Origin: a bacterium
GTDB lineage: Bacteria > Bdellovibrionota_G > JALEGL01
Assembly: GCA_022763185.1 (NCBI GenBank)
Contig: JALEGL010000015.1
Location: forward strand, 124,001-188,000
Length of the DNA stretch: 64,000 nucleotides
Reading direction: 5' to 3'
Shown: positions 4,038 to 53,022 of the stretch, in pieces
Layout: every line of letters begins with the position of its first letter
How positions within the stretch are numbered: the first letter of the stretch is position 1
Made by a program: the position numbers and the translations under genes
Notes under the pieces: model-generated
The model's input: the letters and a program-made list of their open reading frames with translations, nothing else
Told to the model about the DNA's origin: nothing
The model's database searches: none

Positions 4038-4463
4038 CTAACGGTATATCTTGATAAACAAAGCTTGGACAATTGCCATGATCAAAAGCACCAAATCTTC
4101 ATAAACTGTAGCCATGGTTAAAGGTCTCTGTAAAAACACACCAAAACAGCCGCAGTTATCAATCGCTATACCACGATATAGGGTAACAAGCGCCAAAACA
4201 AGATACATGGCCTGAACAGCCACTACAGCATAAGCAGTATGAAGCAATTTTTTTTGCGTTGCCAGTGCATAAGCCAAAAGCAGTTCAAACAAACTAAACG
4301 CCAGTGCAAAACTGAGAACAAAACCGTTCATCTGCTCTAAACCTGGTAATTGATAGGCTATTATGGCTTGCGCAAAACCACGGTTATCTAAAAGCTTACC
4401 CAAAGAGGTGGTTAAATAAATAAGGACAAAAAGATAACGAATGATCCATAAAACAATCTGCAT
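4038..4463 (-). CDS. MauE/DoxX-like four-helix membrane protein
   Basis: A 141-residue membrane protein with about four hydrophobic helices. The motif NCGCFG (around residues 103-108) is typical of the MauE branch of the DoxX/MauE superfamily, where such proteins take part in redox or disulfide chemistry at the membrane. It is the last gene of a tight operon; its ATG directly abuts the stop of the preceding gene with no spacing. That coupling implies a shared job with the secreted chalcone-isomerase-like and DUF547 proteins and the radical SAM enzyme. The substrate is unknown. The family call is good; the function is only inferred. Confidence 0.75.
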   Translation of the reverse strand: MQIVLWIIRYLFVLIYLTTSLGKLLDNRGFAQAIIAYQLPGLEQMNGFVLSFALAFSLFELLLAYALATQKKLLHTAYAVVAVQAMYLVLALVTLYRGIAIDNCGCFGVFLQRPLTMATVYEDLVLLIMAIVQALFIKIYR

Positions 4464-5021
4464 TTAATCTCCCAACAAAGCTTTTTTTAACTGTTTGGTG
4501 GGAGGGTTTTCACCAATAAAGGTGAGCAGAATCACTTGACTAAAAATAGGGTCATCCATATCGATCCACAATTTTTTATTTTTAAAAATTTTTAAACCCG
4601 TTTTTAAAAACTGATAGTCGTGCACCTCACTTTTTTCTATGGCTTGAACTTGCATGATAAATTTTTTTTGACTGTCTTTGATACCATCACAAAAGGTTTG
4701 GCAATTACTTTCTATGGACTTAAGCCAAGCTTCTTGCGTCGCTTTTAAATCAACTTTATGATTGTACTTTAAACGAATCAATACTGGATAAGCTTGTTTT
4801 AAAAGTTTACTCGTACTTACGGGCTTGAGCTGTTTATGACCATAAAGCGCTGCTTCATAGACACTGGCCCAATAATATTTTCGTTTACCTTGGCCTATTT
4901 TTATCAAGCTTTGCTGCTCAATCGTCAGCGTTTCTGGGAAAAGTTGCGTTTCTTTGGCCTCAAGCTGAAAAAAGCCAAAACTCAATGAAACCATAAAAAA
5001 AATAAATCTACTGTTGGCCAT
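4464..5021 (-). CDS. Secreted chalcone-isomerase-like protein
   Basis: A 185-residue protein with an N-terminal signal peptide (hydrophobic residues ~5-20, then AKE). The body matches the bacterial chalcone isomerase-like family. A WASVYEAALYG segment near residue 50 corresponds to the family's 'K-VYvAaLY' strand, and the C-terminus has LTFIGENPPTKQLKKALLG, like the family's closing 'GxxPpxxxLKxALLG'. Members share the fold of fatty-acid-binding plant CHI-like proteins and most are not true isomerases. Here it would act in the periplasm. Its start overlaps the end of the DUF547 gene by 14 bases. A lipid- or fatty-acid-binding role would fit the operon but is inference. Confidence 0.75.
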   Translation of the reverse strand: MANSRFIFFMVSLSFGFFQLEAKETQLFPETLTIEQQSLIKIGQGKRKYYWASVYEAALYGHKQLKPVSTSKLLKQAYPVLIRLKYNHKVDLKATQEAWLKSIESNCQTFCDGIKDSQKKFIMQVQAIEKSEVHDYQFLKTGLKIFKNKKLWIDMDDPIFSQVILLTFIGENPPTKQLKKALLGD

Positions 5022-5781
5022 GAATGGTCCAATCGTATGAAATGAATTTGACTTTATACTCCTTGGGAATAGTGTGCTCAGTGTGTTGATTAATGTAATC
5101 TATCAATGTCGGTGTTTGTTTATTAATAAAGTCATCTTTGTAAAAGCTCAAAATTTCTGAAACATAGACCGTCTTATTTTCTGAGTTGATCTGTAAATTG
5201 CGTTTTTCACTAAAAAAAATCTGTCTGGCTTCATTGAGTTCTTGTTCAATATGATCAGCAGTAAATGGTTTTTTGGGTAAGATGGGACAAGAAACAGACA
5301 TGCAGTTGAGTGCAAAATGAATCCGTTCATCAAATTTTTTACGGATGTATGTGTTTTCCAGCGTGTACAAAGACATCTTTTTTTTGGCAATGTGCAGCTT
5401 GGTTAAAAAGAAAAAGCGTATTTTACCAAAACCCTGGTTGGTTCTGGGAATAAAGCTCTCTAAAACATTGTACATGGACATGGCATTATACGTATTGATC
5501 ATGTGCGCCAACAATGCATTTTGTGTAGTAAATTCAGAAAAAGGGGTGTGCGCTATATAAGACACATAGAGGTTTAAATCATCCTGCTGTTGGGCCAAAT
5601 CCTTGAAATTGACTTGCCCTTGCTCATTGACATGTTCTTTTAAAACCCTGCTGTAAGCATTGATGGCTTGAGTATGACCATAATCAGTTTTGTTTTGAAG
5701 GCTCGGTATCTTGCGCACGCATGCTGATAAGCTTAAAAGAAGGGTGACAAGCATTATACTTTGTTGAGTATTTTTTTTCAT
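5008..5781 (-). CDS. DUF547 lipoprotein
   Basis: A 257-residue protein with a lipoprotein signal peptide: lipobox LSAC, Cys near residue 21. The DUF547 core is clear from MINTYNAMSMYNVLES (around residue 93), the SLYTLENTYIRKKF block (around 137) and the highly conserved RIHFALNCMSVSCPILP (around 153), with two cysteines and a histidine. The molecular function of DUF547 is not established. The gene overlaps the radical SAM gene by four bases (ATGA), so the two are translationally coupled. The protein is probably anchored on the outer face of the inner membrane or in the outer membrane. Confidence 0.85.
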   Translation of the reverse strand: MKKNTQQSIMLVTLLLSLSACVRKIPSLQNKTDYGHTQAINAYSRVLKEHVNEQGQVNFKDLAQQQDDLNLYVSYIAHTPFSEFTTQNALLAHMINTYNAMSMYNVLESFIPRTNQGFGKIRFFFLTKLHIAKKKMSLYTLENTYIRKKFDERIHFALNCMSVSCPILPKKPFTADHIEQELNEARQIFFSEKRNLQINSENKTVYVSEILSFYKDDFINKQTPTLIDYINQHTEHTIPKEYKVKFISYDWTIHGQQ

Positions 5782-7199
5782 ACTACGGGCAGCACTTCGC
5801 TATCTTCACCATTAATTTTCTTTTGTCGATAACGACCTTTAAGACGTTTCACAGGCAATTCATTCAGATCCAATTGATTTTTATTTGGATTTTGTTTGTT
5901 GTTGTCTACCGTTGTCCCTGTCAATGGATTCCATACTGCTTCTTGCTCACCCTTTTTAACGGTGAGGTTTTGCAAAATAAAGTCATCTCGCTTTGCATTG
6001 TGCACACACATTGAAATTGGACCCTGGGGGGTTGCGACCATAAATACACAGCTTTCACAACGCTCTTCATCCAAGTGTTTTTCATCCATGAAGTTATGAA
6101 TAAAATAGGTCATCTTTTGCACTTTTCCTTTTGACTGAAGTAAGGCACCTTTCATGGCCCATAATTTTCTCAACACATACGCCGTCAATGGCAGCCATAG
6201 CGATGGATTTGTTAATACAAGCTTGGCAAAATAATTTCCGGTGTTGGATTTTTCTTCACGATCAATATTAAACTCTGCTGATTGCTGAATGATGGTTTTA
6301 AATAATTTGGTTTTTTCCAAAAAATTAAATGCTTTATTACCGGCAACCAAGGCAATGCCATAACGATTACAGTCATGATGACCAATATTGGCAACGTCAA
6401 AATTAATTTTGCAACCTGCACCCGCATTGATTTTTTCACTAACTGTTTCTGGTGTGATCATAAAGTCACGTTCTCTAAGAACCCCACGTCCAGTATCCGC
6501 CTGTAATTGAAAGGAGGCTAAATCTACTTTATCAGCATGCGCATTAAAAAAACGCACCAAATCAGGAATTTCATGAAAATTGCCTTCATACACAGTGGTG
6601 TTAAAGAAAATATTTAAACCTGTGCCATGCGCAGCTTCAATGTACTTTTCACGAATACGATTCAACTCAATTTCTGTATTAAACCCTTTACGCTCCTGAG
6701 TTAAATCAACATGAAAAGCAACATCCACCAATCCGGCTTGCTTTAAGTCCAGCAACAAATCTCTTTTGGCCAGAATGCCGTTGGTAAACAGTGAAGTTTT
6801 GAACCGATATTGCGCTGCATACTCTACTATAGCAATCAGTTCCTCTCTTTTTCTTAAGGTAGGGTCTCCACCTGAGATTTGAATATCCGTTTCAGGACCA
6901 AAATGTTCATAAATATCATCTAAACGTTTGTACACTTCTGCAAGGGGAATATCTTTAACCGCTTCAGAAGCATCAGAGAGATAACACAAGGTACAGTCTA
7001 AATTGCAGCGCTGGGTAATTTCTAAAGACACACAGCCAATAGGCCAGCGTCGTCCTGCCATTTGATAATCATGCCATTGGCCATAATCCTGCATACGCTG
7101 CTTGGTTTGACGTTTATAAACGCCATCCTTGGGTGGGTGGGAGTAGGGCTTCCAGTTTTGAATTTGCTCATCAGACAGGTATTTGGGTGTTTTTTTCAT
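5778..7199 (-). CDS. Radical SAM enzyme, Tes/COG1964-like
   Basis: A 473-residue radical SAM protein. The [4Fe-4S] motif CNLDCTLC (Cys65, Cys69, Cys72) binds the cluster that cleaves S-adenosylmethionine, and ISGGDPT (around residue 110) is the SAM-binding GGE-like strand. Two further cysteine-bearing blocks stand out: GHHDCNRYG in the middle, and near residue 380 CESCVFMVATPQGPISMC followed by VHNAKRDD. These recall the 'CsHPdC' and 'HYatPDGriIPFC-YN' blocks of COG1964 enzymes, the group that includes the archaeal tetraether lipid synthase Tes. That link is from memory. The N-terminal CPYDCGLC-type motif of archaeal Tes is absent. A good SD (AAAGGCG) precedes the ATG. It is the first gene of the four-gene envelope operon. 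Confidence 0.85.
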   Translation of the reverse strand: MKKTPKYLSDEQIQNWKPYSHPPKDGVYKRQTKQRMQDYGQWHDYQMAGRRWPIGCVSLEITQRCNLDCTLCYLSDASEAVKDIPLAEVYKRLDDIYEHFGPETDIQISGGDPTLRKREELIAIVEYAAQYRFKTSLFTNGILAKRDLLLDLKQAGLVDVAFHVDLTQERKGFNTEIELNRIREKYIEAAHGTGLNIFFNTTVYEGNFHEIPDLVRFFNAHADKVDLASFQLQADTGRGVLRERDFMITPETVSEKINAGAGCKINFDVANIGHHDCNRYGIALVAGNKAFNFLEKTKLFKTIIQQSAEFNIDREEKSNTGNYFAKLVLTNPSLWLPLTAYVLRKLWAMKGALLQSKGKVQKMTYFIHNFMDEKHLDEERCESCVFMVATPQGPISMCVHNAKRDDFILQNLTVKKGEQEAVWNPLTGTTVDNNKQNPNKNQLDLNELPVKRLKGRYRQKKINGEDSEVLPVV

Positions 7200-7320: not shown

Positions 7321-8097
7321 TTAGATGGCAATATCGTCTTTGTCTTGGTTTTCAACCCGTTTCTTCATCAAACTGATAAGATGAGAAAAACCTTTATCTT
7401 TTATGATTTTATTGAATTGGCTTTGATAGGTTCTAACCAAGTTGACATCATCTAATGTGATGTTGTAAATCATCCACTGTTTATTTTGCTGCAACAAGTC
7501 ATAACGAATATCAATGTTAGCATCTTCTTGTGAAACCGTTGATGTGACGCTGGCATTATCACCTTTTATTTTTTGATTCTTGAATGTGACTTCATAATCG
7601 CCAATAATATCACGTGAGCGTTTCAAATAAGAGCTTTCCACCAGCTGAATGAATAAGTCAGAAAACTGTTGTCGGTTTTTACTGCTTTGTGTGTTCCAGT
7701 GTCGACCCAAGCTTCTTTTGGCTAACTCTTGAAAATTAAAAAATTCTCTTACTTGTTGCGCAATACCATCTTCTCTATTTTTAGAATTGGGTTGATCTAC
7801 AAAACTGCGTAGTTTTTTTGTGTAGTTGGCAATCACTGCCAAGGGTTGATCTTGCTCTATATTTTTTTGCTCGGATTTAATTCTAATCCGTTCATTTTTA
7901 CTTTCCGCTGCCAGGGGCTTCTGAATACTTTTTACATCCTTGGTGCTTGCAACATTTTTTTCTTGCTTATTTTTGTCCAAAGCTTTTATTTCTGCATTTG
8001 CTTGTTTAACCTGTTCATTGCTCGCCTTAACTGCATTGCCTTTATTTGCACAGGAGGCCATCAAGCCCGTTAAAACCAAAACCATTAAATATTTCAT
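7321..8097 (-). CDS. MlaC-like (ABC transporter auxiliary) lipoprotein
   Basis: A 258-residue protein whose residues ~85-245 match the MlaC/Ttg2D family, which carries phospholipids between the inner-membrane Mla ABC complex and the outer membrane. Visible family blocks are FFNFQELAKRSLGRHW, the FSDLFIQLVESSYLKR helix and the YDLLQQNKQWMIYNITLDDVNLV strand pair. Unusually it has a lipobox (LMASC, Cys near residue 16) and a ~65-residue Lys/Glu/Gln-rich linker before the domain. MlaC proteins are normally soluble in the periplasm. A GGAG ribosome binding site precedes the ATG. The mlaD/E/F partners are not in this window. It follows the tolC-like gene and may be co-transcribed with it. Confidence 0.8.
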   Translation of the reverse strand: MKYLMVLVLTGLMASCANKGNAVKASNEQVKQANAEIKALDKNKQEKNVASTKDVKSIQKPLAAESKNERIRIKSEQKNIEQDQPLAVIANYTKKLRSFVDQPNSKNREDGIAQQVREFFNFQELAKRSLGRHWNTQSSKNRQQFSDLFIQLVESSYLKRSRDIIGDYEVTFKNQKIKGDNASVTSTVSQEDANIDIRYDLLQQNKQWMIYNITLDDVNLVRTYQSQFNKIIKDKGFSHLISLMKKRVENQDKDDIAI

Positions 8098-8186
8098 CTT
8101 ATTCTCCTCGCTGTTTAAGCGCTATCACCAATTGCTCGTTTGATTCTAGACAAGATAAGCTCTTTTGCCAAGCATGCAAGAGCAAA

Positions 8187-9578
8187 TCAATTGTTTTTTT
8201 CAATCAATAAATCTTCACCAATAGCCCGCCTTAAAGCAAAGCGTGCTTTATGATAATTGTAGAGTACATCAAAAAAGCTGGTTTTGACACTGGCATAGCC
8301 TACAAAAGACTCCAACAGCTCTCTTGCATCCATAAGACCCGCTCCAAAATTTAAAGTGGTGGATAAAACCCAACTTCTGGCAGATTTTAAGGCTTGTGTT
8401 GAACTATCATAAGCTTGTTTTTTAGCCTTTAGATTAAGATATTTGTCTCTTATCTCTAGCTCTATACCTTGTAAGGCTAGGTTTGCGCGACTTTGTGCGA
8501 GTTTAAGTTTTATTTTTTCTTCCTTGTATTCTGTTGCAATATTATGAAACGATAAGTTTTGCCGGATACCAAAACTAGCGCCAAAAATATTTCTGTTGAA
8601 GCCATCGTTAATATAGGGGTTAGAAAAGGCTGCTCTACCCGGTGCATCCGACAACTCCCATTGTCCAGCAATAAAAATATTGGGGAAAAACTCAGCTTTT
8701 TTAGACAACATTAAATGTTTTTGAGCCAAAACTGCTTTTTCAAGCTGCTGCATTTCTGGTCGTGCCACTTTTGCCCGAGCTAAATAATACTCACTGCTTT
8801 GTAAGTCTAGTTTTGGTTTGGGAAGTTTACTGTCTACAATTTTAATTTTTTGTTGGCTATCAAGTCCCATTAACAATTTTAGTGAATATTCAGCAACATC
8901 CAACCCTCTTTGAGCATCTGCAGCTCGTCGTTTGGTTTCATTAATGAATACTTTAATGCGCATTAAATCAATATCAGTTACTTCCCCTGAGCCGCTATCA
9001 AGACGCTCAATAACTCTATCCTTGGCTTGATTGGCTCGATCCAAAAGTTCTGCAATAAAGTCTTTTAAATTTTGCAAATAAACATGCGTCCAATAAACCG
9101 TTTGCACTTGTTCTATAATTTCATTTTGTTTGGCTTTTAAGCCTTCTTCAGCCGATAAAACACCGTTGCGGGCAGCTTTTTTTAGGTTATTCAAACGATT
9201 GAACAGATAAACTGGCTGAATAAAGGTTAACTTGCTGCGAATAAACGGTCCCAAACCTTTAAGATTGGCATTGTAATCCGGAAAGTCATTTTCAGGCCCA
9301 AAGCCTTCTGGTAAATCAGGAACAACCCCGGTCAGGATATTGATTTCAAATTCAGGTAAAATCATGTTGGACTTGGCTCTATTATGTTGCGCTTGTCGCA
9401 TGGCCAACTCCTGCTCAGAAATTTCTAGCTGTGGTGCGTTTTGCATCGCCGATTCAATGGCCGTATTCAAAGTAATTTTCTTTGCGCCTTGATCTGATTT
9501 GCTTTGTGTCTGTGCAAAAGTGTCTCCACTGATACAATAGACAAAAAGTACAAGGCTTATTTTTGCTAAATGTTTCAT
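8187..9578 (-). CDS. TolC-family outer-membrane efflux protein
   Basis: A 463-residue protein with a signal peptide (cleavage near FAQ, residue ~23) and two homologous halves rich in long amphipathic helices, as in TolC trimers that form the outer-membrane/periplasmic channel of type I secretion and efflux systems. Typical signs are LNTAIESAMQNAPQLEISEQEL at the start of the mature protein and the GLDSQQKIKI segment before the second half. No inner-membrane pump or adaptor sits beside it; the downstream neighbour is the MlaC-like lipoprotein. A terminator upstream separates it from pckA. It is distinct from the second TolC-type gene at 60.9 kb, which is tied to an RND pump. Confidence 0.85.
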   Translation of the reverse strand: MKHLAKISLVLFVYCISGDTFAQTQSKSDQGAKKITLNTAIESAMQNAPQLEISEQELAMRQAQHNRAKSNMILPEFEINILTGVVPDLPEGFGPENDFPDYNANLKGLGPFIRSKLTFIQPVYLFNRLNNLKKAARNGVLSAEEGLKAKQNEIIEQVQTVYWTHVYLQNLKDFIAELLDRANQAKDRVIERLDSGSGEVTDIDLMRIKVFINETKRRAADAQRGLDVAEYSLKLLMGLDSQQKIKIVDSKLPKPKLDLQSSEYYLARAKVARPEMQQLEKAVLAQKHLMLSKKAEFFPNIFIAGQWELSDAPGRAAFSNPYINDGFNRNIFGASFGIRQNLSFHNIATEYKEEKIKLKLAQSRANLALQGIELEIRDKYLNLKAKKQAYDSSTQALKSARSWVLSTTLNFGAGLMDARELLESFVGYASVKTSFFDVLYNYHKARFALRRAIGEDLLIEKNN

Positions 9579-25052: not shown

Positions 25053-26114
25053 TTATTGATTGAGCAGATATCCCAAAATTAATATTTGGGGCACAGTGAT
25101 AAGCGGTAAAAATAGTGCTATTTTCCAAGAGTGCGTGGTTTCTTTTAAGGCCATAATCTCTGTATAGTCTGTAGAAACACCGGCCATCAAAAAGGTAAAA
25201 CTGTTGCCCGGGGCTGCGGCTCTGTTGATAAAATCTGCCGCTACCGGAGCAGCTCCCTCTGAACAGACTTCAATCACAGTTGTTGCCAGCAGGGTAGCAC
25301 CCAAACCCAGCAAGCTGGGACCAAAATACTGCGTAAAAATATCTGTGGGTACATAAGTTTTTATGATGCTGGAAAGCAGCGCCCCAAAAATAATCCACTG
25401 AATAATCATCCTGGAATCTTTAAAACCGTTTTTAAGCATATGCCAAATATCCAGCCATTGAAACTGGTAAGTGCTCCAGTCCCGTTTTAGCTGCGTCCAA
25501 AGTTTAAAGTCTGGAGTCAACTCAACTTGATGTGGATTGGCTGGCAAAATTTTTTTATTTTCCAATAAATCAAAAATCATTCCAGACACAAACGCAATGA
25601 CCGCAGACAAAACCACAAACACCAGCATCCATTTAAAGCCCATCAATGCCCAAAGAATTAAGGTTAAAGAAAAAGAATTCCATGGGCTGGCAATTAAAAA
25701 AGCCATGGTTTGACCCAAACTGGCTCCCCGTTCATAAAGCTTCATCCCCACCATCAAAATACCGTGGTTGCATAAATCCAAAAGTAATCCGGCCAAAGTT
25801 GCACGGATCAAACCCACTTTGGTTCTTGGCTTGCCTAAAACAGAAATCACATACTCTCTAGGAACAAATGACAATAAACCCACAAACACAATACCCAAAG
25901 CAATACCCCAGGACATTAAATTCATCAGTTCATAAAAAGCATGCAGAAGGTGCGCATGTTTATTCTCAATGTTAAAGTACACACTGTTGAGCAGATGTCC
26001 TATGTACAGCACACTTGCACAAAGCAACATCAGTCTAAAAAAAGAATACCAAGACCGTTTGTTCTTTTGAGGGTGACAACTGTTTTGTTTTTCTTCTGGT
26101 GGACAACACTCCAT
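25053..26114 (-). CDS. Predicted permease (ArsP/DUF318-like)
   Basis: A 353-residue membrane protein with about eight to ten helices, in two halves. It matches the 'permease' family that includes ArsP organoarsenical exporters. Family signs are LLLDLCNHGILMVGMKLYERGASLGQTMAFLIASPWNS in the first half and VIEVCSEGAAPVAADFINRA with GNSFTFLMAGVSTDYTEI in the second. The N-terminus MECCPPEEKQNSCHP is cysteine-rich and could bind a soft metal, a hint that the cargo is a metal or metalloid. No ArsR-type regulator is nearby. The substrate is not known. Confidence 0.75.
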   Translation of the reverse strand: MECCPPEEKQNSCHPQKNKRSWYSFFRLMLLCASVLYIGHLLNSVYFNIENKHAHLLHAFYELMNLMSWGIALGIVFVGLLSFVPREYVISVLGKPRTKVGLIRATLAGLLLDLCNHGILMVGMKLYERGASLGQTMAFLIASPWNSFSLTLILWALMGFKWMLVFVVLSAVIAFVSGMIFDLLENKKILPANPHQVELTPDFKLWTQLKRDWSTYQFQWLDIWHMLKNGFKDSRMIIQWIIFGALLSSIIKTYVPTDIFTQYFGPSLLGLGATLLATTVIEVCSEGAAPVAADFINRAAAPGNSFTFLMAGVSTDYTEIMALKETTHSWKIALFLPLITVPQILILGYLLNQ

Positions 26115-26217: not shown

Positions 26218-26706
26218 TTATCTTACATGCTTTAGTTGCCAATTTTTATTGGCTTGCTGAATTTGACGGGCATCATCTTTTTTATTCCATTTTTTTAAAG
26301 TGTTGCTCAGCCAGCTTTTGTAGAACAGGTATATCTTGCCATTGATGACCTTAAAACTTTTTGGATCTATCTCTACCAAGTCACCACTATCGGCCATGGC
26401 ATAAGCGCACCATCCTTTATATTGCGGTAAAAATACATCTGGATTGCTGAGAAATGCCTGCTGATTGGCTTTAGAGCTGAAATAAATAACTGTTCCTTCA
26501 TGGTGATGCTGAAATTTCTTTTGCCCTTTGATGGCTTTATTCTGTTTGATATAAGCCACTGGATCATAGCCATCAATAAAGATACCTTTGCTTTGATAAT
26601 AAGCCACAGACGCATTGGCATGTATTGCATTGAACAGCAAAGACAAAAAGAAAAGTACAAAGCCAATCTTTTTAGCGCATTTTAAAATTATTTTTTGTAC
26701 TTTCAC
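26218..26706 (-). CDS. Secreted YHS-domain protein
   Basis: A 162-residue protein with an N-terminal hydrophobic signal (residues ~14-32, ending ANA). The YHS-like core IDGYDPVAYIKQNKAIKGQKKF runs into YFSSKANQQAFLSNPDVFLPQYKGWCAYA, the signature of periplasmic YHS proteins thought to bind metals. The best start is a GTG at 26706, with AGGA about ten bases upstream. An overlapping ATG gives only MKK-stop. It begins 12 bases after hemL, so it is probably co-transcribed with hemL. Heme or metal metabolism is a possible shared theme, but this is inference. Confidence 0.75.
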   Translation of the reverse strand: MKVQKIILKCAKKIGFVLFFLSLLFNAIHANASVAYYQSKGIFIDGYDPVAYIKQNKAIKGQKKFQHHHEGTVIYFSSKANQQAFLSNPDVFLPQYKGWCAYAMADSGDLVEIDPKSFKVINGKIYLFYKSWLSNTLKKWNKKDDARQIQQANKNWQLKHVR

Positions 26707-42999: not shown

Positions 43000-43036
43000 A
43001 AAGTACCCAAAGGTACCGGCTACCTTTGGGTACTTT
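43000..43036 (-). terminator. 16-bp perfect hairpin at the end of the giant gene
   Basis: AAAGTACCCAAAGGTA (43000-43015), loop CCGGC, and its complement (43021-43036), touching the stop codon of the giant gene. Only three to four Ts follow on the - strand, so it may be more a palindrome-family member than a simple terminator. Its centre GGTACCGGCTACC resembles those at 23.1 and 55.6 kb. Confidence 0.65.
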
Positions 43037-44607
43037 TACTGTACAAAAAACTCAACTCTTCGGTTGAGGGCTCTGCCATCTGCTGTTGTGTTGCTGGCAA
43101 TAGGATCTGTTTCACCTTTGCCTTTGGCTGACACCGCTCTTGGGTCCATACCCAATTCAATCAAGTATTGTCTTACTGCATTGGCGCGCTCTGTTGAGAG
43201 TTCAAGGTTTTTCTCAGCATCGCCCAAGCTGTCTGTATGTGCTTCAACATACAGTTTATTGACTTTGGCTTTTTGAATTTTCTCATAGGCATCCAGCAAA
43301 ATCGCTTTGGCTTGGACATTAAGCTGGTATTGTCCAGATGCAAAATAAATTTTTCCATTCAAATCTAACTTTTCACCTTTGCCTTGGTCATAAACGATGC
43401 TGTAATTATTGTCTTGATTGGGTTTAATTTGAAAAATTTTACGCAAAGGTTTTTCACCATCACCCACCATCACCATGACCACACCTTCGTTTACGGTTTT
43501 ATTCAATTCACTGATTTCACCTTCAAACAATGGCTGGCTTTGACTGTCTGACATCACTTTAATCTGGGTATTGATTTTTTCACCGTATTTATCAACAATT
43601 TTCAAGTTAAGCATACCCGTTTGCCTTTGAATGGGTTTGGGTGTTGGTTTAGGCGTAGGGGTAGGTATTGGCTTGGGTTTTGGTTTTGGAGGTGTTGGTT
43701 TTTTAGGAATACTTTTGTTGGTGTAACTGATTCCGGTATACAATCTTACTTCTGGTGCACCATAACCATTGTTGCCTCCTCGTGATGTTCCCATGGTCCA
43801 CTTCCAGCGTTGATTTTTTGAAATTTTTTGTAGACCCAAATACATTTCACCCGGTGAATTGACTTCTTTGGGTTCATGAAGAGACATAGACCCAGACAAC
43901 TCAGCAAAGACTTGCCAGCCATCAGAATTTAAAAAGCGATAAACGTAACCCAATTTACCCATGACTTCACTGCCAATTTCTAAAGCTCCAATATTTTCTA
44001 TGTTGGGACGGTAGCGCCCGCCAAGGTTCATGGTAATATAGTGACGTTTCATGCCTCCCCAACGGTCTAAAACAAAATAACCCCCGCCAGTGATATCCTG
44101 ATTACCAAAAAAACGATTTTCTTCTCCAACCGGAAAGGTGACAAAAGGGACAAAACCAAAACCCCAAGTACCGCCAACAGCATTCCAGTTTTTTCCTTGC
44201 AGCTGCAGCAAGCCTTGCAAAGTAATATCTCCAACATTAAATTCTTTTGTACTGGTAAATTGAGAAAAGTTTTCTACATTGTTGTAAACATGAAAGGGTG
44301 CATGCACTTGAAAGCTAAAACGATCACTCACCCCAAAGCCCATCAATACATCCTGCGTGAAAATCCATTTAACAATATCATCAAGACGTTCGCCATCTCC
44401 ACTTGGACCAAATTCCAATGGATTTTTGGTCCAAGTAAAATAAGCCCCCACCGCATATTTACCCGGTTCAAGTGTGGTTGAGCTTAGAGCCTGATGACCA
44501 TCCGGATTAAGAATCTTGGGCGTAACATAATGAATGTTGATGGCCTGTGCCGGTTGACTCACAAGAAAGATACAAAGTCCAATCAGCAAAAATAAATTTT
44601 TTCTCAT
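43036..44607 (-). other. Internal OmpA-family module with its own start and signal peptide
   Basis: An ATG at 44607, in frame with the giant gene, begins MRKNLFLLIGLCIFLV and continues to SQPAQA, a complete signal peptide. The next ~520 residues form a full OmpA-family protein: barrel-like region, Pro/Lys-rich linker (~20 residues around 43650) and OmpA domain. It resembles the 475-residue OmpA-type protein at 37.9 kb. A weak AGAG lies 8 bases before the ATG. It may be translated separately, as well as or instead of as the tail of the giant protein. Confidence 0.6.
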
Positions 44608-47600
44608 CTTTGCTCTATCTACTTTTCTCAATAAAGCCATCAATACTGCTAGCAACATCAACAAGACAATACTTGGGTTAGAAGCCCCCGAGTTACAGAG
44701 CCCCCAATCCAAGAAACCCACTGTTCCTGAACCTCTTGGTGTAGCGTCATTGGGGTCACTGGGGTCCAAACCAAGATCAATTTCTTCACAGTCGGTCAAA
44801 CCATCACCATCAGTATCACGCACTGTTGGGCAATCATCTGTTGGGTCCAATGGATTGCTGTTAAAAATATTAACCTCATCGCCATCGTTGATGCCGCCGT
44901 TATCGGTATCAGCATCATTTCTATCGGTGCCGTAGGTACCATCCTCTTCACAATCCGTTAAACCATCGTTATCTGAATCTGGGTCCGCCAAAGGATTGCT
45001 GCCGTAAGTATTGACCTCTACACCATCCAAACAACCGTCCATATCAGTATCATTGCTGGTTGGATCGGTGTTGAAGGTATTGAGCTCAGCTCCATCCAAC
45101 AAACCATCGCCGTCGGTGTCTGGGTTATTGGGGTCACTGCCGGCATTGTATTCTTGACAATCGTTGGCGCCATCACTGTCGGTATCCGCTACATTGGGAT
45201 TGGTAAACAGGGTAGTGGCTTCCAAACAATCGTTGCAGCCATCGCCATCACTGTCGGTCACCAAAGGATTGGTCACTGGGCTCATGATGGTGCCCATACC
45301 TGGGAACCAGGCACTGTTTTCTGGATCATCGTATGGACACATGGCCGTGGTTCCAAAAATTTCACAGCCATCGGTACAACCATCGCCATCGCTGTCTGGA
45401 TCATTGGGATCGGTTCCAGCTGTGGCTTCATCACCGTTGGTCACACCATCATTATCTGCATCTTCATCCAAAAACGGATCATCGTTTGGATTTCTTGGAT
45501 CACTGGGCTCATTAGCTTCATCGCAGTCGTTGGTTCCACCATCATCGGTGTCGGCATCGGTTGGATCAGAAATAGGGCTCATCACCGTACCCGGCGCACT
45601 AGGATGACCAATAAACGGACAGCTGGCTTCTGCTGGTGGGTTGGTCCCAAAAACCTCGCAGCTGTCGGTACAGCCATCCATATCCGTGTCTGCCAAGGTT
45701 GGGTCAGACATCAATGTGGCTTCATCCATGTCAAGCAAGCCATCATCATCGGCATCGGTATCTTGGAAGTTAGGAATACCATCCATATCGGTGTCAACAG
45801 GTATGGTGTTGCTCATAGCATCGCCTGCTTCATTGCTATCAAGAATGGTATCATTGTCTGAGTCTGTGTCTCTAAAGTCTGGAATGCCGTCCGGCACCGT
45901 CTCAGAGTCAAACAAGTTGGCGTAGAGCGTAACCAACGTACCGGCATTGTACATGGGATAGGTTTCTGTGGCATCACTCTCATGCAGATCCAAAATGTTG
46001 TCGTTATCCGAATCCAGATCAAAGTAATCTGGCGTAGCGTCTGGCACGGTTTCACTATCCGCTAGATCACTGATGATCATGCCGCTTGGATAAGCAGCTT
46101 GATATTCTGCTAGACTGATGCTGCCATTGGCATTACCATCAATGTCAGATACATGCCCCTCAATGATATCACCAATGCCATCGCCATCAGCGTCAATATC
46201 AACATAGTTGAAGAAGGTATCATTGTCTTGATCACCCAGAGGCAACTCATTGTTTTGCAAGAGGCCATCCATGTTGGTATCGCTTGCTGCAACACAGGCC
46301 ATAACTTCAGTTGTGGTCAAATTAGCATCTTCATTGGCATCACAGACAAAACGTGCGCCTTCAATCAAGTCTGGAATCCCGTCGCCATCTGAATCAATGT
46401 CCAAGTGGTTGGGCGTGCCGTCGTTGTCTGTATCTGACAAGTCGCTGTCTTCTAAGACACCATCGCCATCGCCTAGCAATGCATAGAGCGCAGCTTGTTC
46501 AGGACTTTCAATTTGACCGTTATCATTGGCATCCACCGTGGCCAATTGCGCCGGCGTCAACTGACCAAAGAAGTTGTCTTCTAGGTCACTGATGCCATCG
46601 TTGTCAGAATCCGTATCTTGATAATCTGGAGTTCCATCACCGTCAGCATCCGGCAAGACACCGCCTGGTAATTCAGATTCACTGATGGCGCCGTCATCAT
46701 TTGTATCAAAACAGTTCATATCATCTCTGATTTCCATGTCACTGAGTTGCCCGTCCATGTTGGTGTCACATACACCCAAGCCAATTTCAATCATGTCCAA
46801 GATGCCATCGTTATCCGAGTCATTGTCCAGACTGTCTTCTTGGCCATCGCCATCGGTATCAACGCCGTTGCCGCCATCTTCACCGTCAATGAAACCGTCA
46901 CCGTCAGAGTCTGGGTCCATGCTATCATCCATACCGTCACCATCCGTGTCTGTACCAGAGCCACCAATGGTGAGTTCTTCACTGTCACTCAGACCATCGT
47001 TGTCATCATCGGCATCAATGTAATCTGGCGTACCATCACTGTCGGCGTCGCCGGTGCTATCCAAACTGTCACTGACGCCGTTGTCATCTGAGTCGGTGTC
47101 CAAATAATTGGGGACACCATCACTGTCAGCATCGGCCGTACCTTCATCTCCAGTGAGTTGGCCATCGCCATCGTGATCAGTATCCAAGGCCACGCTGTTG
47201 GAATCAGCACTGCTGTAGACTGTTTCGTTGGGATCAAGGCCGGCGTAGGTTGAATAATCCAAGCCTGCAATCAAATTGCTGATGCTGGCCACGCCAGGCA
47301 TCACAGGATCGCTGCAGCCATTGACAATACCATCATTATCTGGGTGGACGCCAATGGGGAAGTCCAAACCAGAATTGTCTGCTGCGCTTTCACAGCTGAC
47401 CGCCGTGGGGATGCTTATGGCATAATAAGCATCAGGCGCAATTTCATTCATGCCCATGGTGTTGCGGACCACAAACTCTAGGTTTTGCCGTGAATCAGCG
47501 CCAAAAGGTGAGCTTTCTATGATTTCGCTGGCTGTGATGGCTGCTGAGATATTCACACAGTCAGGATCAGAACTGACATCATGGCCACAGCTGTCGGTAT

Positions 47601-50600
47601 CCGCACCTTGTGAACAATAAAAGACGCTGGCACTTGTGGCTGAATATTGAAGGCCTTGTGGAAGCACATCAACCAAATTGTCCACGTCATAGGCAGTGCG
47701 ATCGCCAATATTTTCAATGTGCACCGCATAATTGACATTGCCAGCCAAAGTCACCGGGTCTTGGGTCCCGGCAATTGCACATTTGCTAAGCACCAACTCT
47801 GGGCGGTTGAAGTTTTGAAAGTCTGGCTGAGCAGGATCGTCTATGGCCACGGGTATGGTGTTAAGATCAGCATCGCCGGCTTCATCAGCGTCAAGGAAAC
47901 TGTCGCCATCGGAGTCAAGGTCTCTAAAGTCTGGAATCCCATCGGGCACAGCTTCACTGTCAAACAAATTACTGTAAAGAATAACAACAGAGCTGGTGTC
48001 ATAGCTTGGATACATTTCTGAAGCATCGCTTTCATGCATGTCATAGATGGTGTCACCATCACTGTCTAAATCAAAGATATCCGGCGTGCCATCAGGCGTA
48101 TCTTCAGAGTCTGCCAATTCACTGAACAAGAGATCACCGCCACCGTTGGCTGCGCTGTACTCAGCGTCGCTGATGCTGCCATTGACATCGGTATCAATGT
48201 CACTGTTGTAAGCTTCTATCCAATCGGCAATACCATCACCATCGCTGTCTATGTCAATGTAGTCTGGATCTGTATCGCTGGTGTGCGCTCCTGGCGCTGC
48301 TGCGTCACTGTTTGGCGCTGCTGCTTCATCCAATTGCAATAAACCATCGCCATCACCGTCGGTCAATGCACCACAAGCTGTAACTTCTGTTGAAGTGATA
48401 AAGCCATTGTCATCGCTATCACACACATAACGGCCATTCTCAACAAAGTCATAGACTCCGTCGTTATCTGAGTCTCTGTCTAAGAAATTGAGCAGACCAT
48501 CGCCATCGCTGTCTGGGATTTCATCAAAGTTTAAAACACTGTTGTCGTCATTGGCTCCACCGCTGACGTCATCTCCGGCGCCATCGTCAATATCATTTCC
48601 TTCAGCTGTTGTGATCAAGTTGTCCGCATTGTCATCATAAACCGTTAAACCCGATTCATCCAAATCTGGAATACCGTCTCCATCAGCATCTAGGTCTAGA
48701 TAATTGGCCATGCCATCGCCATCAACGTCGTCAAACGCTCCGCCTGGCAGTTCCGTAACGCTGATAGCCCCATCCATATTGCTATCCAAACCACTGGCCG
48801 CAATTTCTGCAGTACTTAATAGGCCATTGCCATCGCTGTCATAGACATGGAACATGTGTTCTAATAAATCAGGAATACCATCATTATCTGAATCCAAATC
48901 CAAATAATCTGGCGTGCCATCACTGTCACTGTCTGTACCAGGACCACCTTCATCACCGTCCAAAATACCATCACCATCTGAGTCGTTATCCAAATAGTCT
49001 GGGGTACCGTCTCCATCTGAATCAATCATTGTTCCCATTGAGGTGGTGATTTCATCGGCATCAGTTACGCCATCATTATCATCATCGGTATCTTGGTAAT
49101 CTGGTGTGCCATCACCATCGGCATCGCCTGTGCCTTCAGTAGCATCATCGGTACCGTTGTCATCTGAGTCAGTATCCAAGTAATTGGGGACACCATCGCC
49201 ATCAGCATCGCCAGAGCCTTCATTGCCATTGGCAATGCCGTCACCGTCATGGTCAACATCTAAAGCAGGAGAGGTATCATCCGTTGCACCAAAGGTTGCT
49301 TCACCGGCAACAACGCCATCTAAACTGCTGTAACTGGCCAAAGATGCCGTATTGCTGATGCTACTGACATAAGGCATGACTGGATCTGTACAACCATTGA
49401 CTACACCATCATCATCCGGATGAGAACCAATGGGTGAGTTTACGCCGTCACTATCACTGGCGGATTCACAGGATACTTCGGTTTGAATTTGATACACCAC
49501 ATAGGCCTCTTCCCCTAAGTCATCGCCAGCAGCGGGGTCAACAAAAGGAAATGTTAAGTTTTGACGGCTGTCTCCACCAAACGGTGAGCTTTCAGCACTT
49601 TCACCACTTCTCACGCTGGCACTGATATCCGTAAGCATGGCCGTACAATCACTTTGCTCCCAAGCCGAACAGTTACCCGCATTAACAGAGCTGGCACCAG
49701 AAGAGCAATAATATGCGTTCACGGTATTGGCAGCGTATTGCAAACCTTGTGGTAAAACATCACTGATATCAGACAAATCAAATGCCGTACTTAAAAACGA
49801 CCCACTGTTTTTAACAACAATGTTATAGCCAAGCGTATCACTTAAATTAAACGGCTCTAAAGCTTCTGTACTTGCATCTGCACATTTAATAACAGTGATG
49901 TCGGGTTTGTTGAGGGTAAAGGTTTCGTTGTCTGAATCCACGGTGATATCGTCCGAACCGTCATTGAATCTGAATTGGCCCTCTAAATTTTTGTTATTCG
50001 CAGAAACATTGCGAGTTTGCGCTTGAAAAGAAAAGGTTGCAGTTCTCCCACTAAGGTCGGTGGCCGTGTTGGAGGCTGTCCCTAAATCGATGAATGCTTG
50101 AGTATTTGAACTGGCATCAAGCGAATTTTCAGGGTCATTGCCAAAACAAAGTTCTGTTCCTCCCAAAACGCAGTATGGCCCAGTGCCACTCACACCGCCA
50201 CTGACCGCAATGGTGTAATCCCCTGGAGTGTTTGATCCCCAAAAATTACCAGAAATCTCTCTTAAGATCGCTCGCGTCGATGCTGCTTGTCCCTGTGGAA
50301 AGTTGACCACAACATCAAAAGTCACAAAATCGCCTACGGTGCCACTGACCGGGCTAACGCCAACCGTACCCAGACTTGGCGCTTCAATTTGGGCTTCGCT
50401 TTCATCGTCTACTGGGGAAAACGTGGTACCCCCTAAAACCGATGCAAACACAGCTTGAGCACTGTTGGTGTAAGTGTTACCCCAAATGGCATCAGGCACC
50501 AAGCGTAAATCAAAGCGAATTTCACAGGTATCGCCAGATGCAATACTCATGTCAATGATTTCAATTGTGGTTTCATCAACATTGCTGGTGATGTCAGGCA

Positions 50601-53022
50601 CACTGCTGTTGGAGCATTCAGGGCTCAGACTAATATTATAGCCACAGGCAACATCCATACAGGCTGCCGATGTACTCGGAGCAACAAAGCCCGTGTTTAT
50701 CACATCTGTAAACACAACATCCAAAGCTTCTTGCTGACCACTGTTTTCTAGAGTAACCAAGTAAGATAAGACCGCATTGGCATCAACATCACTGATGTTG
50801 CCATCGGTGATGCTTGCATTGGGGTCATCTGTAGATTCAACCCCTTTATCAATATTTAAAAATGGGGCATCGCCAATAAACAGATAGGTTCCTGTGGCAC
50901 CCACCAATGCAGTGTTGGCACTGTTGTTGTATTGGGTCACCACCATGTTGTTTTGCAACAACCCATCCAGAAAAGGTTCGTTGGTCACTGTTTTGGTAAA
51001 AAACAACTCCACTGTGCCCGAACCGCCCCCTGCAATTTCAAAGTCTACAAAAGCAAAGTTGATGCTGTTGTTAGGATTACTGCACGTAAGCGTAATATCC
51101 CCACTGGCCAAAGCCGGATCATTGGTACCAAAACTCCACATATTGTTGGCTGGGATGGCGGCGCCATCGTAGGTGAGGCAAGGAGACTCATCAAACAAGG
51201 GGTTGGCCAAGTAGTTGGTTAAATTTAAATCTTCTACGTCTCCCCCTGGAATCAACACCGTAATTTTATACGTCACTTCATCACCGGCCTCAACATGAAC
51301 CGCACCCATGCCCACAGGACTGCCATTAACATGGGAAATTTCAACCTGAGTATCTTGTAAGGATACAATGCTTGGATTGTCTTGCTCAGTATTATCAGGA
51401 TAAGTATCATCATTGGCACTTTCCCCCATATTTCCACCAACAACATCGTAATTTGTTAGGGTGGCGTTGGGTAACGGAAAGACATCACCGGCATCAATGG
51501 ATACATCTGTGGTAGGAGGTAGAGTCTCAAAGTCTTCATCAACGATGGCTTGGTAGATGATCTGTATACCTGTGCTTGATCCTGAGCTGAACACACCATC
51601 CCCTGAGAGCGTAGTGTCCGCAAAAGAAAAATTGACCGTATCGGCCATAAGGCTACCTATATCTAAAGAAAAATCACTGCTGCCATCAGGGTACGTATTT
51701 TGTGTCAAATGACCAAAAGCCAGTAAATCTGCTTCATTGATGTTGGTGATAACACCGCCTTCGTTAACCACCACCATCATGCTACTGGTTGCATAACTCA
51801 GTCCATCTGGTAAAGCATCCCCTATCACCAAATTATTCACTTCATAATAGTCGCTAAGAGCCACATCCACTGTAAACTCAAGGCTGTCTAAAGGCGTTAA
51901 ACCAGATCCCCCCATGTCTGTTGCAAGACTCCAGCTTTTCTCTATATCCAAGCCATAGGCTCTATACGTTGCGGTATCTAAAACAGGTGAGCTTAGTTCA
52001 TCAGCATTGGCAACCACACCGGTTGTTTCTGCTGTAGCACTAAGTGTATTGGGGTCAACAATCTCTGAAGCATCATCTCTAAACTGTTTGTATACCCCCA
52101 TATAACTGATATTAAAATTTGCATTGATGCTGGCGTAGCTGATGCCAATGGTCCCTCCGGTGGCAGAAGAAATATCTGGCGTGTAGACACAGCTCGTTGG
52201 TGCTGGTGTAATGCTAAATGAACTACAATCTCCTGGATCGCTTACTTCTAAAATTTCTGGAATAGTCTCCTCAATGGTGACGTTATTTAAAGTGACAACA
52301 TTTGAAATTGAACCGGCAATATTCACCGTTTCTGGGTATGTTGGTCCTGCTCCCAAGGCAATGTTGGCACTTAAACTGCCATTGGTACTTGTCACGGTTT
52401 TATTTATTTTTAAAGCTTGGGCGGTAACATCATCGGTTTGCGCCAAAGAACAAAGGGTATCCGAAGCGCCGCAATCTCCAGGTGCACCATTGACCAAACC
52501 ACCAAGCACGTACATGGCTTGGGCTTGTCTGAATGTGTAAGGTGTTCCTGCAACGGCAATGGGTTGGCTCATGCCATCTAAGGTAAAATCAAAGCCTACG
52601 GTGCATCGTATTTCAGGTTGATCTGGAGCATGCGAACCCAAGTTGGGCTTTATCGCAACAAAGGTTTCTCCTGCTTGCAGGGTAAAAATTTCTCCAGTGA
52701 ACGGATTTTCTACATCCAGCGTATCCACTGCTGAGGGATTGTTTTGTACATCAATACTGGATACACCCAGATTTTGACAAGCATTACTGCCATTGTAGGT
52801 AAACTCTTTTGGAGCAATGAAGTGGAAGGCCGGAAAAAAACCAGAGTCTGTGGCGTCGGTATTATCCAATATCATCCTGACATCAAATGATTGGTTTAAC
52901 AATGGATCTGCATTATTGCTTGGGGCATTAAATGTTAAAGTTGGAACTGGCGCTGCATAGGCTGACAAAGCCCATAGACCAACAAACAGTAAAAAGACGA
53001 CTTGAATCAATTTATGTTTCAT
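43036..53022 (-). CDS. Giant surface protein: DUF11 + TSP3/EF-hand repeats fused to OmpA-type barrel
   Basis: A 3328-residue protein. Order: signal peptide (1-23, ends AYA); several DUF11-like beta-sandwich domains to ~1040; unit A, a DUF11-like domain (~1040-1245) plus a calcium-repeat block (~1250-1730); unit B, a second copy (~1740-2410); more Cys-containing TSP3 repeats to ~2750; a tail with a cysteine, a hydrophobic helix and basic residues (GLCNSGASNPSIVLLMLLA, then LLRK, ~2775-2805), like a MYXO-CTERM-type sorting signal. After this the frame continues at Met2806 into a second signal peptide, a beta-barrel region, a Pro/Lys linker and an OmpA peptidoglycan-binding domain (HTDSLG, LNRRVEF). 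Calcium loops are DSDGDGTPDYLD-like and EF-hand-like. Probably an adhesin or surface-layer protein. Whether it is made as one chain is uncertain. Confidence 0.88.
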   Translation of the reverse strand: MKHKLIQVVFLLFVGLWALSAYAAPVPTLTFNAPSNNADPLLNQSFDVRMILDNTDATDSGFFPAFHFIAPKEFTYNGSNACQNLGVSSIDVQNNPSAVDTLDVENPFTGEIFTLQAGETFVAIKPNLGSHAPDQPEIRCTVGFDFTLDGMSQPIAVAGTPYTFRQAQAMYVLGGLVNGAPGDCGASDTLCSLAQTDDVTAQALKINKTVTSTNGSLSANIALGAGPTYPETVNIAGSISNVVTLNNVTIEETIPEILEVSDPGDCSSFSITPAPTSCVYTPDISSATGGTIGISYASINANFNISYMGVYKQFRDDASEIVDPNTLSATAETTGVVANADELSSPVLDTATYRAYGLDIEKSWSLATDMGGSGLTPLDSLEFTVDVALSDYYEVNNLVIGDALPDGLSYATSSMMVVVNEGGVITNINEADLLAFGHLTQNTYPDGSSDFSLDIGSLMADTVNFSFADTTLSGDGVFSSGSSTGIQIIYQAIVDEDFETLPPTTDVSIDAGDVFPLPNATLTNYDVVGGNMGESANDDTYPDNTEQDNPSIVSLQDTQVEISHVNGSPVGMGAVHVEAGDEVTYKITVLIPGGDVEDLNLTNYLANPLFDESPCLTYDGAAIPANNMWSFGTNDPALASGDITLTCSNPNNSINFAFVDFEIAGGGSGTVELFFTKTVTNEPFLDGLLQNNMVVTQYNNSANTALVGATGTYLFIGDAPFLNIDKGVESTDDPNASITDGNISDVDANAVLSYLVTLENSGQQEALDVVFTDVINTGFVAPSTSAACMDVACGYNISLSPECSNSSVPDITSNVDETTIEIIDMSIASGDTCEIRFDLRLVPDAIWGNTYTNSAQAVFASVLGGTTFSPVDDESEAQIEAPSLGTVGVSPVSGTVGDFVTFDVVVNFPQGQAASTRAILREISGNFWGSNTPGDYTIAVSGGVSGTGPYCVLGGTELCFGNDPENSLDASSNTQAFIDLGTASNTATDLSGRTATFSFQAQTRNVSANNKNLEGQFRFNDGSDDITVDSDNETFTLNKPDITVIKCADASTEALEPFNLSDTLGYNIVVKNSGSFLSTAFDLSDISDVLPQGLQYAANTVNAYYCSSGASSVNAGNCSAWEQSDCTAMLTDISASVRSGESAESSPFGGDSRQNLTFPFVDPAAGDDLGEEAYVVYQIQTEVSCESASDSDGVNSPIGSHPDDDGVVNGCTDPVMPYVSSISNTASLASYSSLDGVVAGEATFGATDDTSPALDVDHDGDGIANGNEGSGDADGDGVPNYLDTDSDDNGTDDATEGTGDADGDGTPDYQDTDDDNDGVTDADEITTSMGTMIDSDGDGTPDYLDNDSDGDGILDGDEGGPGTDSDSDGTPDYLDLDSDNDGIPDLLEHMFHVYDSDGNGLLSTAEIAASGLDSNMDGAISVTELPGGAFDDVDGDGMANYLDLDADGDGIPDLDESGLTVYDDNADNLITTAEGNDIDDGAGDDVSGGANDDNSVLNFDEIPDSDGDGLLNFLDRDSDNDGVYDFVENGRYVCDSDDNGFITSTEVTACGALTDGDGDGLLQLDEAAAPNSDAAAPGAHTSDTDPDYIDIDSDGDGIADWIEAYNSDIDTDVNGSISDAEYSAANGGGDLLFSELADSEDTPDGTPDIFDLDSDGDTIYDMHESDASEMYPSYDTSSVVILYSNLFDSEAVPDGIPDFRDLDSDGDSFLDADEAGDADLNTIPVAIDDPAQPDFQNFNRPELVLSKCAIAGTQDPVTLAGNVNYAVHIENIGDRTAYDVDNLVDVLPQGLQYSATSASVFYCSQGADTDSCGHDVSSDPDCVNISAAITASEIIESSPFGADSRQNLEFVVRNTMGMNEIAPDAYYAISIPTAVSCESAADNSGLDFPIGVHPDNDGIVNGCSDPVMPGVASISNLIAGLDYSTYAGLDPNETVYSSADSNSVALDTDHDGDGQLTGDEGTADADSDGVPNYLDTDSDDNGVSDSLDSTGDADSDGTPDYIDADDDNDGLSDSEELTIGGSGTDTDGDGMDDSMDPDSDGDGFIDGEDGGNGVDTDGDGQEDSLDNDSDNDGILDMIEIGLGVCDTNMDGQLSDMEIRDDMNCFDTNDDGAISESELPGGVLPDADGDGTPDYQDTDSDNDGISDLEDNFFGQLTPAQLATVDANDNGQIESPEQAALYALLGDGDGVLEDSDLSDTDNDGTPNHLDIDSDGDGIPDLIEGARFVCDANEDANLTTTEVMACVAASDTNMDGLLQNNELPLGDQDNDTFFNYVDIDADGDGIGDIIEGHVSDIDGNANGSISLAEYQAAYPSGMIISDLADSETVPDATPDYFDLDSDNDNILDLHESDATETYPMYNAGTLVTLYANLFDSETVPDGIPDFRDTDSDNDTILDSNEAGDAMSNTIPVDTDMDGIPNFQDTDADDDGLLDMDEATLMSDPTLADTDMDGCTDSCEVFGTNPPAEASCPFIGHPSAPGTVMSPISDPTDADTDDGGTNDCDEANEPSDPRNPNDDPFLDEDADNDGVTNGDEATAGTDPNDPDSDGDGCTDGCEIFGTTAMCPYDDPENSAWFPGMGTIMSPVTNPLVTDSDGDGCNDCLEATTLFTNPNVADTDSDGANDCQEYNAGSDPNNPDTDGDGLLDGAELNTFNTDPTSNDTDMDGCLDGVEVNTYGSNPLADPDSDNDGLTDCEEDGTYGTDRNDADTDNGGINDGDEVNIFNSNPLDPTDDCPTVRDTDGDGLTDCEEIDLGLDPSDPNDATPRGSGTVGFLDWGLCNSGASNPSIVLLMLLAVLMALLRKVDRAKMRKNLFLLIGLCIFLVSQPAQAINIHYVTPKILNPDGHQALSSTTLEPGKYAVGAYFTWTKNPLEFGPSGDGERLDDIVKWIFTQDVLMGFGVSDRFSFQVHAPFHVYNNVENFSQFTSTKEFNVGDITLQGLLQLQGKNWNAVGGTWGFGFVPFVTFPVGEENRFFGNQDITGGGYFVLDRWGGMKRHYITMNLGGRYRPNIENIGALEIGSEVMGKLGYVYRFLNSDGWQVFAELSGSMSLHEPKEVNSPGEMYLGLQKISKNQRWKWTMGTSRGGNNGYGAPEVRLYTGISYTNKSIPKKPTPPKPKPKPIPTPTPKPTPKPIQRQTGMLNLKIVDKYGEKINTQIKVMSDSQSQPLFEGEISELNKTVNEGVVMVMVGDGEKPLRKIFQIKPNQDNNYSIVYDQGKGEKLDLNGKIYFASGQYQLNVQAKAILLDAYEKIQKAKVNKLYVEAHTDSLGDAEKNLELSTERANAVRQYLIELGMDPRAVSAKGKGETDPIASNTTADGRALNRRVEFFVQ
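44740..49265 (-). repeat. TSP3/EF-hand-coding repeat region, in two ~2-kb duplicated units
   Basis: Dozens of DxDxDG-type repeats occupy this stretch, interrupted at ~47205-47835 by a DUF11-like domain. EF-hand-like loops (DSDGNGLLSTAE, DTNMDGQLSDME and others) are interspersed. The order of elements in ~47835-49900 is repeated in ~45740-47800, including the distinctive ends DFRDLDSDGDSFLDADEAGDA and DFRDTDSDNDTILDSNEAGDA. Confidence 0.85.

Follow-up and report, generated by a model that had tools for sequence, protein, structure and literature searches.

We analysed a window of 64,000 nucleotides of bacterial DNA (Bdellovibrionota_G, JALEGL01; contig JALEGL010000015.1, positions 124,001 to 188,000 of the forward strand), and in particular a four-gene operon located at positions 4038-7199 of the window, on the minus strand. 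The first gene (5778..7199, 473 aa) encodes a radical S-adenosylmethionine (SAM) enzyme that resembles tetraether synthase (Tes) and will be called rSAM1. It is followed on the same strand by genes for a DUF547 putative lipoprotein (5008..5781, 257 aa), a secreted chalcone-isomerase-like (CHI-like) protein of the Chalcone_3 family (4464..5021, 185 aa) and a MauE/DoxX-like membrane protein (4038..4463, 141 aa). Open reading frame (ORF) calls indicated that the four genes are real and confirmed the layout described in the original prediction: rSAM1 and DUF547 overlap by 4 bases (5778-5781), DUF547 and CHI-like by 14 bases (5008-5021), and the spacing between CHI-like and MauE is zero (4463/4464). 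The family assignments were also upheld by Pfam, as every protein exceeded its gathering score: Radical_SAM, 56.8 bits; DUF547 (PF04784), 64.1; Chalcone_3 (PF16036), 65.4; MauE (PF07291), 58.7, the threshold being 27 bits for each of the last three. The genome to which the window belongs carries a single rSAM1 copy. A promoter and terminator scan gave no signal clearly above shuffled sequences, and an Rfam search of the window gave no match.

The CX3CX2C motif of rSAM1 (C65/C69/C72) is kept in 84 out of 84 aligned loci, whose choice is described below. Four extra cysteines, C56, C277, C384 and C398, were all found in 56/56 aligned relatives; in the larger set, C56 and C277 were as invariant as the motif, and C384 and C398 were present in 82/84, the two remaining rows being incomplete in that region. 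The four extra cysteines could jointly ligate one auxiliary [4Fe-4S] cluster.

An AlphaFold2 model of rSAM1 was built from the 56-row alignment (mean predicted local distance difference test score, pLDDT, 91.5; predicted template modelling score, pTM, 0.91). When compared with solved structures, the model matched Tes (GDGT-MAS, PDB 7tol) with Z 29.7 over 358 residues and a root-mean-square deviation of 4.0, while the next unrelated structural match was viperin, with Z 18.6. A profile of the 56 relatives likewise placed 7tol first (E 1.3e-27), and a second, weak stretch of that match paired the HxxC and C-terminal cysteine blocks of both proteins. As modelled, rSAM1 has the Tes fold and a Tes-type C-terminal domain. 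Because 7tol is the top match of both profile and structure, the likeness to Tes put forward in the original prediction, later cysteine blocks included, is right at the fold level. PADLOC reported weak viperin similarity only, as expected from the radical SAM domain.

Family membership did not follow. The top NCBIfam models for rSAM1 were TrsS (NF045646), with 96 bits against a cut-off of 490, and Tes (NF045702), with 80 bits against 450. Comparison with the Tes of M. jannaschii (MJ0619, PDB 7TOL/7TOM) revealed a common fold, CX3CX2C motif and aligned HxxC and C-terminal cysteine blocks; C277, C384 and C398 align with cysteines of 7tol, in keeping with a C-terminal auxiliary-cluster domain of the Tes type. 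In contrast, rSAM1 has neither the N-terminal rubredoxin nor the [Fe4S4]N domain, for which PMC9433317 gives C9..C33 and C73/C77/C80 as ligands. The first cysteine of rSAM1 is C56, an additional invariant residue that distinguishes it from Tes. The position of Tes Met439 is occupied by His in 49/56 relatives, and that of Tyr459 by Val, Ala or Thr in 56/56; in the same paper, both residues are described as fully conserved across 1000 archaeal Tes homologues. The low score, the missing N-terminal metal domains and the two altered residues rule out that rSAM1 is a Tes. The match to the TrsS radical SAM (seleno)protein spans rSAM1 residues 56-402, yet stays far under the cut-off; TrsS is mentioned in PMC13188914 in a table only. 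In one locus (L004), a TrsS-like radical SAM gene adjoins a putative prolipoprotein diacylglyceryl transferase gene, both identified by eye.

Residues 313-357 of rSAM1 have a net charge of +4 to +12 in 56/56 relatives, are 49% hydrophobic on average and are largely helical in the model. Such a basic, half-hydrophobic segment would suit a membrane surface.

From signals read by eye, the partner proteins are predicted to be located within the membrane or on its outside. The DUF547 protein has a lipobox-like LSAC sequence (by eye) and two cysteines, C160 and C165, that are invariant in 54/54 sequences. When its AlphaFold2 model (pLDDT 92.7) was compared with 446 chains, no match exceeded Z 4.0; this result does not show whether the fold is known or new. 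The CHI-like protein shows a hydrophobic N-terminus, again by eye, and cysteines at positions 107 (12/14) and 111 (9/14); the chalcone-isomerase fold is known for fatty-acid binding. The NCGCFG motif that had been pointed out in MauE was present on reading the sequence, and its C104 and C106 were found in 22/22 proteins. MauE and CHI-like domains are fused in one ORF in locus L045 (10177-11343), which suggests a joint function of the two proteins.

One scan of genome contigs yielded 201 rSAM1 relatives, 80 of which were taken for analysis. Together with the window, a distant relative (G009) and two plasmid loci, they make up the set of 84. Many of these loci are short contigs, and absences are therefore weak evidence. 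Neighbour gene calls were crude, and neighbour families were defined with seed hidden Markov models (HMMs) applied iteratively to these same loci, using hand-set score cut-offs. DUF547 was found near rSAM1 in 72 loci, MauE in 21 and CHI-like in 14, where the fused gene of L045 is tallied under CHI. In view of these counts, rSAM1 and DUF547 constitute the conserved core, and MauE and CHI-like are frequent additions. A hand tally detected all four genes in 12/84 loci: the window, L034, L037, L039, L040, L041, L044, L045 (fused), L050, L074, L092 and L114. Two of them depart from the common layout: in L041, CHI lies on the opposite strand and a frame break interrupts rSAM1; in L114, some 6 kb separate rSAM1 from its three partners, which lie on the opposite strand next to a second DUF547 gene. 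The idea that the four families travel together outside the window was thus borne out.

The rSAM1-DUF547 pair or larger sets were detected in Pseudomonadota, Bdellovibrionales, SAR324, Nitrospinaceae and others, a recurrence that argues against a chance arrangement; the phylum of the window is thinly sampled, with five genomes in the searched set. In G009, whose rSAM1 is 47% identical, the order is rSAM1-DUF547-MauE, with thioredoxin-like and VTT-domain genes upstream. CHI-like genes were also found on two other plasmids, among transposases or among porin and efflux genes. The operon is absent there, which argues against strict linkage. A rhodanese-like gene was seen by eye just upstream of rSAM1 in L037, L039, L044 and L048, on the opposite strand in the latter.

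The neighbourhoods of rSAM1 also revealed a link to organoarsenic genes, which the original prediction, made without database searches and supported in part (Tes likeness and co-occurrence), had missed. Core organoarsenic genes (ArsS, TIGR04282, TIGR04283, TIGR04169, ArsM and a second radical SAM family that we call rSAM2) were detected with seed HMMs in 18/84 loci. By gene, the numbers were 7 loci for ArsM, 5 for ArsS, 4 each for rSAM2 and TIGR04283, 3 for TIGR04282 and 2 for TIGR04169-like genes. When neighbours were clustered without bias, the ArsM type was the largest rSAM1-only family after DUF547 and MauE/CHI; it adjoins rSAM1 in L047, L049, L051, L054, L070, L072 and L084, within 1.5 kb in 7/7. 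A MIP channel gene follows ArsM in L051 (PF00230) and, as judged by similarity, in L047.

Individual loci illustrate the association. L040 presents TIGR04169-rSAM1-DUF547-MauE-CHI-ArsS on one strand, with TIGR04169 at 164 bits (cut-off 120) and ArsS at 405 (cut-off 300). In L041, from Bdellovibrionales, the genes are TIGR04283, TIGR04282, ArsS, AhpD-like, nucleoside hydrolase (PF01156), rSAM1, DUF547, CHI, MauE and ArsC; TIGR04283 scores 163 bits, just below its cut-off of 182, and the ArsC-like protein 115 bits against 174. On an annotated Roseomonas plasmid, the neighbours of rSAM1 are TIGR04282, another radical SAM gene and genes for a PhnD-type transporter and a metallophosphoesterase; on an annotated Burkholderia glumae plasmid, rSAM1 adjoins ArsS. 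Arsenic-gene neighbours were found at L079 and on the L114/L115 plasmids. ArsC is near rSAM1 in 2/84 loci, and thioredoxin-like and CcdA neighbours were also seen.

Two arsenic-related radical SAM enzymes deserve comparison. ArsS (TIGR04167), which according to PMC12159101 attaches the adenosyl moiety to arsenic when oxo-arsenosugars are made, has neighbourhoods and genomes in common with rSAM1 but belongs to a separate radical SAM family, for which rSAM1 scores 19 bits. ArsL, from arsinothricin biosynthesis, works with an ArsM, contains the three CX3CX2C cysteines only and moves 3-amino-3-carboxypropyl from SAM, as stated in PMC8552651; ArsL is not among the NCBIfam matches of rSAM1 listed (best 25 of 59). 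As a separate observation, ArsM-like ORFs with one in-frame TGA each were found in L155, L156 and L157, and an ArsS ORF with one in-frame TGA in another genome (G138:C594); all are candidate selenocysteine forms.

Co-occurrence was then considered at the level of whole genomes, using 50 hand-chosen rSAM1 genomes: L034-L064 in unbroken order plus 19 more, some of which (L079, L092, L112 and L113) were already known for arsenic neighbours. ArsS was over the cut-off in 24 and rSAM2 was present in 11, but no genome had both. The unbroken 31 gave 16 with ArsS, 6 with rSAM2, none with both and 9 with neither. The absence of overlap in 50 genomes has a chance of 2e-4 if the genomes are treated as independent, which they are not, since kinship is ignored. 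Taken together, rSAM1 recurrently adjoins or co-occurs with ArsM/ArsS-type genes: 18/84 loci carry core organoarsenic genes, and 35/50 genomes have ArsS or rSAM2. On an rSAM1 tree (a quick tree, with no bootstrap), near relatives have different partners: L087 has ArsS and L089 has rSAM2, L034 differs from L037, L039 and L044, and a further switch separates L053 and L055 from the adjacent L079, L082 and L115. Because close relatives switch partner repeatedly, the exchange of ArsS and rSAM2 was not one event. In a family-matched, Comamonadaceae-type sample of 200 genomes, 6 had rSAM1 and 25 had ArsS; ArsS was present in 3/6 genomes with rSAM1 vs 22/194 without it (Fisher p 0.027). rSAM2 was found in 0/200 of these genomes, in a search without positive control, and so does not explain the three ArsS-less rSAM1 genomes of the sample.

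The rSAM2 family was first met beside rSAM1 in L114, L050, L052 and L092. Its similarity to TIGR04167 is weak (72 bits for the copy of the window's genome), and both proteins have a C-terminal C...G.SC pattern, detected by eye. Two Nitrosospira genomes (L160 and L162) harbor a TIGR04282-TIGR04283-ArsM-rSAM2-VTT-FAD oxidoreductase-Pst cluster in which rSAM2 occupies the place of ArsS; VTT, oxidoreductase and Pst were assigned by eye, and ArsM, TIGR04282 and TIGR04283 were checked in L160. An ArsM-like gene is near rSAM2 also in G098, G128 and G139. The simplest reading of these gene patterns is that rSAM2 replaces ArsS. In the window's genome, rSAM2 lies on a separate contig (G000 contig C1:3812-4735, minus strand; L120) and is followed by an overlapping gene without family match. 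A DUF3047 assignment for the latter was dropped, as Pfam and BLAST show no such similarity; a DUF3047 gene (209.6 bits) does follow ArsS in L166.

Judged from its sequence and gene context, this is a real, recurrent operon built around a Tes-fold radical SAM family that is tied to organoarsenical genes. A tentative interpretation, to which we would give slightly less than an even chance, is that these genes form an accessory branch of organoarsenical metabolism of the arsenosugar type, in which rSAM1 may supply a missing step towards lipids or sugars that contain arsenic. ArsM would methylate As(III), and ArsS, or rSAM2 as proposed here, would add 5'-deoxyadenosyl to dimethylarsenic. rSAM1 would then abstract hydrogen from a C-H bond of a hydrophobic, probably lipid-linked, partner or product of this pathway. 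Its auxiliary cluster would hold the substrate radical as in Tes, for which PMC9433317 describes an intermediate with a C-S bond from the alkyl chain to the C-terminal cluster before the two chains join. By analogy, rSAM1 could activate a hydrophobic chain and couple or change it. If the partner were a methylated or adenosylated arsenic compound, an arsenolipid or a modified arsenosugar would result, which the DUF547 lipoprotein, the CHI-like protein and the MauE thiol-redox membrane protein might keep reduced and handle at the external face of the membrane. In the organism of the window, rSAM2 would stand in for ArsS. A bolder version, in which rSAM1 is an arsenolipid-forming enzyme that joins an acyl C-H to methylated arsenic or arsenosugar via a cluster-held radical and rSAM2 is a second 5'-deoxyadenosyl-arsenic synthase replacing ArsS, seems to us quite improbable as a whole.

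Several observations weigh against a role in arsenic metabolism. Both ArsS and rSAM2 are lacking in 15/50 rSAM1 genomes, and in 3/6 of those from the Comamonadaceae-type sample. ArsS occurs without rSAM1 in 22/194 genomes, and rSAM1 is therefore not needed for the ArsS step. No core organoarsenic gene was found in the available DNA of 66/84 loci, many of them short. The ArsM relatives score below the cut-off (NF008823, 155-188 bits vs 263 in three members). As for an arsenolipid, we infer the lipid substrate from fold and composition alone. The window's own genome lacks ArsS over the cut-off, TIGR04282 and ArsM (at E 1e-30), so that instead of an ArsM-ArsS pair it has rSAM2 alone, and this rSAM2 has no recognised arsenic neighbour. 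For these reasons, the case for arsenic is strong where the enzyme family is concerned, but weaker in the organism of the window.

An alternative possibility, unlikely in our opinion but deserving consideration, is lipid modification without arsenic: a Tes-like enzyme would couple, crosslink or alter acyl chains, and the arsenic genes would be incidental or share an island with it. The membrane-lipid modification contemplated in the original prediction is of this kind, and would follow from the rSAM1 fold and its basic, half-hydrophobic helical segment. The Tes fold with its auxiliary-cluster pattern, the amphipathic character of the basic segment and the CHI-like partner are all consistent with acyl chains as substrates, as are the 15/50 genomes without ArsS and rSAM2 and the lack of ArsM in the window's genome. 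Incidental neighbours would not, however, readily account for ArsM adjoining rSAM1 in 7 of the 84 loci, with ArsS near in 5 and rSAM2 in 4, nor for the mutual exclusion of ArsS and rSAM2 and the switching of partners among close relatives.

The same arsenic neighbourhoods, with ArsC in 2 loci and a MIP channel after ArsM in L051 and L047, also fit detoxification of organoarsenicals or thiol-reactive metalloids. Here rSAM1 would break or alter a C-As bond or repair damage, with MauE, DUF547 and CHI as periplasmic thiol-redox helpers and no lipid product. The paired cysteines of DUF547 and MauE (and partly of CHI) and the thioredoxin-like and CcdA neighbours agree with such a role. The biosynthetic TIGR04282/04283 and ArsS genes point, however, to making rather than breaking, and a lyase would not usually be expected to carry a C-terminal domain of the Tes type; we consider this explanation distinctly unlikely. 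That rSAM1 is an ordinary radical SAM enzyme with an auxiliary cluster, serving to mature a peptide (RiPP, ribosomally synthesized and post-translationally modified peptide), a cofactor or a protein, is very improbable: SPASM/Twitch maturases do appear among the family matches of rSAM1, but with scores far under all cut-offs and no SPASM family call, Tes is the closest fold by 11 Z units, and clustering of neighbouring ORFs of at least 60 aa gave no precursor-like family, shorter peptides not having been looked for, so that no peptide substrate was found.

Other features of the window can be mentioned. MlaC-family and OEP/TolC-like genes lie immediately upstream of rSAM1 on the same strand (7321-9578, minus), the MlaC-family gene (7321..8097) being separated from rSAM1 by a gap of 121 bases. 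Both were dropped as members of the system; MlaC is beside rSAM1 in 0/83 other loci, and for that reason is probably a neighbour only. An ArsP_1-family permease gene with a cysteine-rich N-terminus (25053-26114, minus) is found 18 kb from the operon, adjoined by a weak YHS-domain gene (26218-26706); the ArsP_1 family is broader than arsenic export. A giant ORF of 3328 aa (43036-53022, minus) has many Asp-rich repeats and an OmpA-like C-terminal end, as seen by eye.

A function of the operon in organoarsenical metabolism would bear on two matters raised in the literature. The tetraether synthase family has bacterial homologues without known role, as noted in PMC9433317, and several arsenic-cycling pathways are still unknown according to a 2024 algal arsenolipid study (PMC11009773). 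We found no published account of a link between DUF547 or a Tes-like enzyme and organoarsenic genes in the literature covered, which leaves out most subscription journals; a search for DUF547 and arsenic retrieved one plant paper, unrelated by title. Linking a bacterial Tes-like branch to ArsM/ArsS clusters offers a testable candidate for both questions, and marks out rSAM2 as a probable substitute for ArsS.

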